Shown here: positions 42,387 to 42,674 of the stretch, in pieces
How the letters are laid out: each line of letters begins with the position of its first letter
How positions within the stretch are numbered: position 1 is the stretch's first letter
NCBI GenBank assembly: GCA_013178225.1
Contig: JABLXE010000001.1
Span: 1 to 64,000 of the forward strand
DNA length: 64,000 nucleotides
From: Methanotrichaceae archaeon
GTDB taxonomy: Archaea; Halobacteriota; Methanosarcinia; Methanotrichales; Methanotrichaceae
Reading direction: 5' to 3'
The notes under the pieces: generated by a model
What the model saw: only the letters and a program-made list of their open reading frames with translations
The model's database searches: none
Told to the model about the DNA's origin: nothing
Translations under genes and position numbers: made by a program

Positions 42387-42656
42387 CTAGTAGGACACGT
42401 CAAACCCGGATTGGCTCAAATCGTCCAAAACCTCAGCCGCTGCCCCAGGACTGAGCCCGTGACGCCGGCAGATGGTCAGAACCCGGACCAGCTCGGCATT
42501 CACATCAGCTGCCAGGTAGGCCTGTTCTGCGAAGACTATCGCCGAATCGTAGCCCTTCACGACCAGGATGCTCCGGAGGTCTGCGATCAGCTTCTGGCTT
42601 GCCGGCAGCCTGGATTCGTCTATGACTCTCCTGGCACCTTCAATATCTTCGTCCAG
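42387..42656 (-). CDS. Small gene following the zinc peptidase, apparent CTG start
   Basis: An 89-codon frame of good composition reads DEDIEGARRVIDESRL, SQKLIADLRSILVVKGYDSA, AELVRVLTICRRHGLSPGAA and ends GFDVSY. It lies in the same frame as the zinc-peptidase gene, just after its TAA at 42675-42677, and has no ATG, GTG or TTG near its beginning. A strong site GGAGGGTGG stands directly after that TAA, 7-8 bases before the CTG at 42654-42656, so translation may start with CTG. Other options are stop read-through or a lost start. It has no detectable known domain and may be all helical. It is short and internally consistent, so probably real. Confidence 0.55.
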   Translation of the reverse strand: MDEDIEGARRVIDESRLPASQKLIADLRSILVVKGYDSAIVFAEQAYLAADVNAELVRVLTICRRHGLSPGAAAEVLDDLSQSGFDVSY

Positions 42657-42674
42657 CCGACCACCCTCCTGGTT

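Follow-up and report, generated by a model that had tools for sequence, protein, structure and literature searches.

A near-cognate start codon in a natural gene is known from infC of Escherichia coli, which begins with AUU and is subject to discrimination by IF3. This example shares its near-cognate start with the archaeal small gene described here, but is bacterial and autoregulatory. On a genomic scale, it has been counted how often an ancestral AUG, GUG or UUG start gave way to CUG or AUU in prokaryotes, with 2 of 61,358 ancestral AUG starts switched to CUG; CUG and AUU starts are few and are omitted from part of the analysis (Belinky, Rogozin and Koonin, 2017; PMC5622118). That work shares with ours the subject of CUG as a prokaryotic translation start, but here CTG recurs at one start column across many genomes of a single archaeal family. 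ATC has been proposed as the start of L12ae in Staphylothermus marinus (PMC2678158) and ATT as the start of an Asgard tubulin (PMC13394414). As in the present case, these archaeal genes lack ATG, GTG and TTG at the expected place and the start was deduced from an alignment or from the distance to the ribosome site; they are, however, single genes with ATC or ATT, whereas here CTG is concerned and codon columns are compared across about 30 genomes and sister families. The accessible part of a further article (PMC3261824) holds nothing bearing on CTG starts, and no report of CUG starts in archaea, Methanosaeta/Methanothrix included, was found by title or opening of the abstract in the open-licence literature.

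The window, i.e. the whole stretch of 64,000 nucleotides that was analysed, belongs to an assembly of 2.98 Mb in 28 contigs of a Methanotrichaceae archaeon, with no second genome of its genus among the 60 genomes examined. On the minus strand (Table 1), the frame of a peptidase-like gene, whose HEYIH motif we take to be that of a zinc metallopeptidase, terminates in ...SSVSYIG followed by TAA at 42677-42675 and reopens after this stop for 95 codons, up to the TAA at 42389-42387. The start-like codons of the open frame are, in order, CTG (codon 7), ATT (11), ATA (18), CTG (23) and GTG (39), and no ATG, GTG or TTG lies in frame between the peptidase TAA and codon 39. The first CTG follows the Shine-Dalgarno (SD) site AGGAGGG by 7 bases, or by 8 if counted from the end of GGAGG. 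The frame coordinates thus bear out the original prediction of an 89-codon frame in the frame of the peptidase and just behind its TAA, with a strong GGAGGG that has only CTG and ATT as nearby starts; that the small gene and the peptidase share a frame carries no meaning by itself.

Table 1. Coordinates of the locus in the window and of the compared genes in the source genome.
Feature	Position	Strand	Basis
Small gene, 89 codons, proposed CTG start, TAA stop included	42387..42656	-	open frame, homologues
Proposed start codon CTG	42654..42656	-	SD spacing, no canonical start before codon 39
Shine-Dalgarno site AGGAGGG	42664..42670	-	sequence; anti-SD pairing
18-base gap from peptidase TAA to CTG, SD within	42657..42674	-	sequence
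Upstream putative zinc metallopeptidase, 166 aa	42675..43175	-	HEYIH motif
First canonical in-frame start GTG, codon 39	42558..42560	-	frame scan
Mevalonate kinase, CTG start, source genome	G000:C1 about 131981	-	loci L076-L105
CobS, CTG start, source genome	G000:C1 about 74775	+	loci L136-L165
NAD kinase, apparent ATT start, source genome	G000:C1 about 166326	-	loci L106-L135
Replication factor C small subunit, source genome, L333	G000:C22 about 318443	-	loci L237-L288

The reading we favour, with a probability of roughly 0.78, is that of a functional gene translated from the CTG at 42656-42654 and sharing a two-gene transcript with the metallopeptidase-like gene that precedes it. Ribosomes would bind to the strong GGAGGG after the peptidase stop, and coupling to termination 18 bases upstream, with which the length of the gap is compatible, perhaps assists initiation. 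As the initiator Met-tRNA would be placed on the CUG, the small protein would begin with methionine.

The product of the upstream gene is well conserved in the family, although no Pfam or NCBIfam model matched it. With the source genome counted, 23 of 50 family genomes contain a homologue, and the full-length ones are 63-74% identical. In other genomes, 21 of 21 full-length homologues end at the same terminal residue (FDRSS.. then stop), G008, which contains only fragments, being excluded from this count, and none of these 21 loci harbours a relative of the small protein better than E=2. It follows that the peptidase normally ends at this TAA. Two frames in phase and 18 bases apart could suggest read-through of the TAA to a C-terminally tailed peptidase, or a fused gene that has lately acquired a stop, as had been considered for this locus; with the stop shared by all 21 homologues, with an SD site between the two frames and with no peptidase in the flanks of the other small-protein loci examined, this is highly improbable. 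A fused peptidase-tail protein in relatives, proposed as a check, was not encountered among these loci.

The small frame is, to judge from its homologues, a real gene and a member of a Methanotrichaceae family of proteins of about 90 residues. When 60 related genomes were searched with the 95-residue translation, 24 proved to contain relatives, the closest, in G003, with 61% identity across residues 9-87, and a paralogue is present in the own genome; with homologues in other genomes the frame is beyond chance. Conservation is uneven, with 11 of 29 residues identical to the closest homologue in the less conserved N-terminal third and 37 of 49 in the remainder. That the most conserved region lies downstream of the GTG at 42560-42558, an ordinary start codon, would fit a 57-residue protein started there, with the upstream part of the frame untranslated. 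Against this, the segment before the GTG is conserved by homologues and, compared with the nearest relative, has changed at a smaller share of its nonsynonymous sites (26.2 of 66) than of its synonymous ones (17.8 of 21; Fisher P=1.9e-4, with counts rounded to 26/40 and 18/3), so that it is under constraint at the protein level. Codons 7-38 are as gene-like in codon usage as the rest (scores of 11.6 and 8.1, respectively), and the first two of the five helices predicted by AlphaFold2 (mean pLDDT 81.8) would be lost. Together with the weak SD pairing described below, this renders initiation at the GTG improbable.

As the 16S gene was not found in the 28 contigs of the source assembly, the anti-SD sequence is assumed to be AUCACCUCC in this organism. 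With this assumed sequence, SD pairing at the CTG reaches -9.2 kcal/mol in the standard window and -10.2 kcal/mol in a longer one, compared with -2.6 kcal/mol at the ATT of codon 11 and -4.7 kcal/mol at the GTG of codon 39. Among 357 sample genes, 13% combine a canonical start with an SD of -8 or lower and 2.5% with one of -10 or lower. The ATT resembles a start codon insofar as this codon occupies the apparent start of NAD kinase in Methanotrichaceae. At the locus it is nevertheless a poor alternative, situated 20 bases beyond GGAGG, and the glutamate that is invariant in the family alignment (E9 of the open frame) would be lost; initiation at codon 11 is thus scarcely conceivable.

Within the small-protein family, the N-termini of the relatives align poorly at the start column of the target. 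The starts of homologues lie mostly 1-5 residues further upstream than the target CTG, the exact position of which is found in the source genome alone. One homologue, L018 in G014, reads GGAGGTGAGACC-CTG with no canonical start upstream, and of its siblings L015 reads GGAGGTGAGATC-TTG and L012, L019 and L022 have GTG; in the five loci checked in this divergent branch the start column consists of NTG only.

With respect to the genome at large, CTG is the commonest leucine codon (56%), and its occurrence at a fitting distance from an SD site could therefore be chance. In the genome sample, start regions show no excess of CTG behind SD sites: it stands 6-10 bases past SD-like sites in 1 of 155 cases in start regions versus 134 of 2315 within coding sequence. 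ATG (29) and TTG (12), by contrast, are enriched after SD-like sites in start regions. CTG as a common start in the source genome is thereby ruled out, and a case has to be made gene by gene. An attempt to estimate start-codon usage by free EM strayed to motifs without meaning and was abandoned, with the gene lists retained.

Genes lacking a canonical start were sought in a sample of 464 kb of the source genome, window included. In 11 of 356 sample genes, the vicinity of the coding boundary contains no canonical start; three of these are clear, namely the genes for mevalonate kinase, NAD kinase and CobS, whereas on visual inspection the other eight were put down to misplaced boundaries or damaged genes or were considered unclear. 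Mevalonate kinase and CobS match NCBIfam TIGR00549 and TIGR00317, respectively, above the cut-offs, and searches for mevalonate kinase, NAD kinase and CobS gave matches in 48, 47 and 45 of 50 genomes. For the 30 Methanotrichaceae loci listed per gene, we then collected the codon that aligns with the first position. For mevalonate kinase this column holds TTG in 20, CTG in 7 and ATG in 3 loci, for CobS CTG in 16, TTG in 13 and GTG in 1, which amounts to NTG in 60 of 60 loci listed; in all 23 CTG cases no ATG, GTG or TTG occurs from the upstream stop to the CTG. Because CTG and TTG both encode leucine, internal leucine columns served as control, and here the share of CTG plus TTG is at most 0.87 (23 columns per gene), compared with 100% NTG at the first column. 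Among 22 genomes of sister families, mevalonate kinase has ATG at the corresponding column in 21 and GTG in the remaining one; CobS likewise has ATG in 21, with G037 unaligned at the start. This column thus marks the start itself, at which CTG is in use. As a start, CTG is rare and retained at particular genes, not general.

These columns bear on the suggestion that an ATG has been lost at the small gene. As the CTG is one base away from ATG, GTG or TTG, it could reflect a recent loss of the start in a young pseudogene, or ATG or another NTG may have been turned into CTG by an error of sequencing or assembly. Yet the SD site and the frame are intact, and 23 of 60 loci listed for other genes, from many separate assemblies, have CTG at their start column; we regard loss or error as unlikely. 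A lost ATG is conceivable as history, but the gene is argued to be still started at the CTG, since a strong SD is well spaced from it and CTG is kept in other genes of the family. Among the three options originally put forward, unusual initiation at CTG is the best supported.

NAD kinase and the replication factor C small subunit (rfcS) provide weaker evidence for starts with ATT, ATC and ATA. In the case of NAD kinase, which NCBIfam models match at 6e-79 but below the cut-off, the first column comprises ATT in 26, GTT in 2, TTG in 1 and TTT in 1 of the 30 loci listed, in none of which ATT is replaced by ATC or ATA; the internal isoleucine columns contain ATT at a share of 0.60 or less (11 columns). 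Only 3 of the 26 ATT loci are without an upstream canonical codon, and in many of the rest a GTG lies 2-4 codons upstream, within or beside the SD-like stretch.

In three other genomes, 21 of 287, 10 of 340 and 6 of 257 genes lack a canonical start near the boundary, and from these lists the row of rfcS, named from reading of the sequence, was alone examined further. Its expected-start column shows ATC in 22, ATT in 5, ATG in 2 and ATA in 1 of 30 family loci, of which 14 are without an upstream canonical codon. An SD precedes the ATC, ATT or ATA in most family loci. In the source genome ATA follows CGGAGG, but with TTG and ATG 14 and 15 codons upstream a start at this ATA is not forced. In sister families the column is ATT in 13, ATA in 6 and ATG in 3 of 22, with ATG or TTG often upstream of the ATT or ATA, and the isoleucine may simply be internal in some of these genomes.

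Cumulatively, the small gene most likely starts with CTG, and CUG is, as read from codon columns and SD spacing, an uncommon but genuine start codon of Methanotrichaceae and not an error of one gene. On the wider proposition that this family possesses stable family-wide near-cognate starts, with CUG for cobS, mvk and the small gene, AUU for nadK and AUC, AUU or AUA for rfcS, we would lay even odds. If true, the choice of the start codon would be relaxed in this lineage, or near-cognate starts would be kept at these genes for the low or regulated output that a weak start gives. As standard gene callers commonly consider only ATG, GTG and TTG, genes with near-cognate starts would be missed or shortened. 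The columns in which CTG, TTG, ATG and GTG alternate, with ATG in the sister families, offer a ready comparative system for the acceptance of CUG by archaea, which could equally be used to ask whether weak starts are retained for a reason.

As to the small protein itself, the best matches to Pfam and NCBIfam are far under the curated cut-offs, and a megablast search against phages gave no match. Foldseek of the predicted fold versus the PDB returned nothing below E=1.2; a resemblance to a Cmr5-like fold was weak and was not used. When genome contigs were searched with the single protein no match was obtained, unlike with the family alignment, which recovered 11 named loci, mostly from Methanothrix and Methanotrichaceae, with a few labelled only as Methanosarcinales or uncultured archaeon. 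In L013, L014, L021, L024, L025, L027, L029 and L030 the related domain is preceded by an N-terminal segment; in the two proteins scanned, from L030 (E 0.014) and L029 (3.3e-4), this segment has a weak resemblance to ParD-type antitoxins (PF09386 for the match at 3.3e-4), below the cut-off in both.
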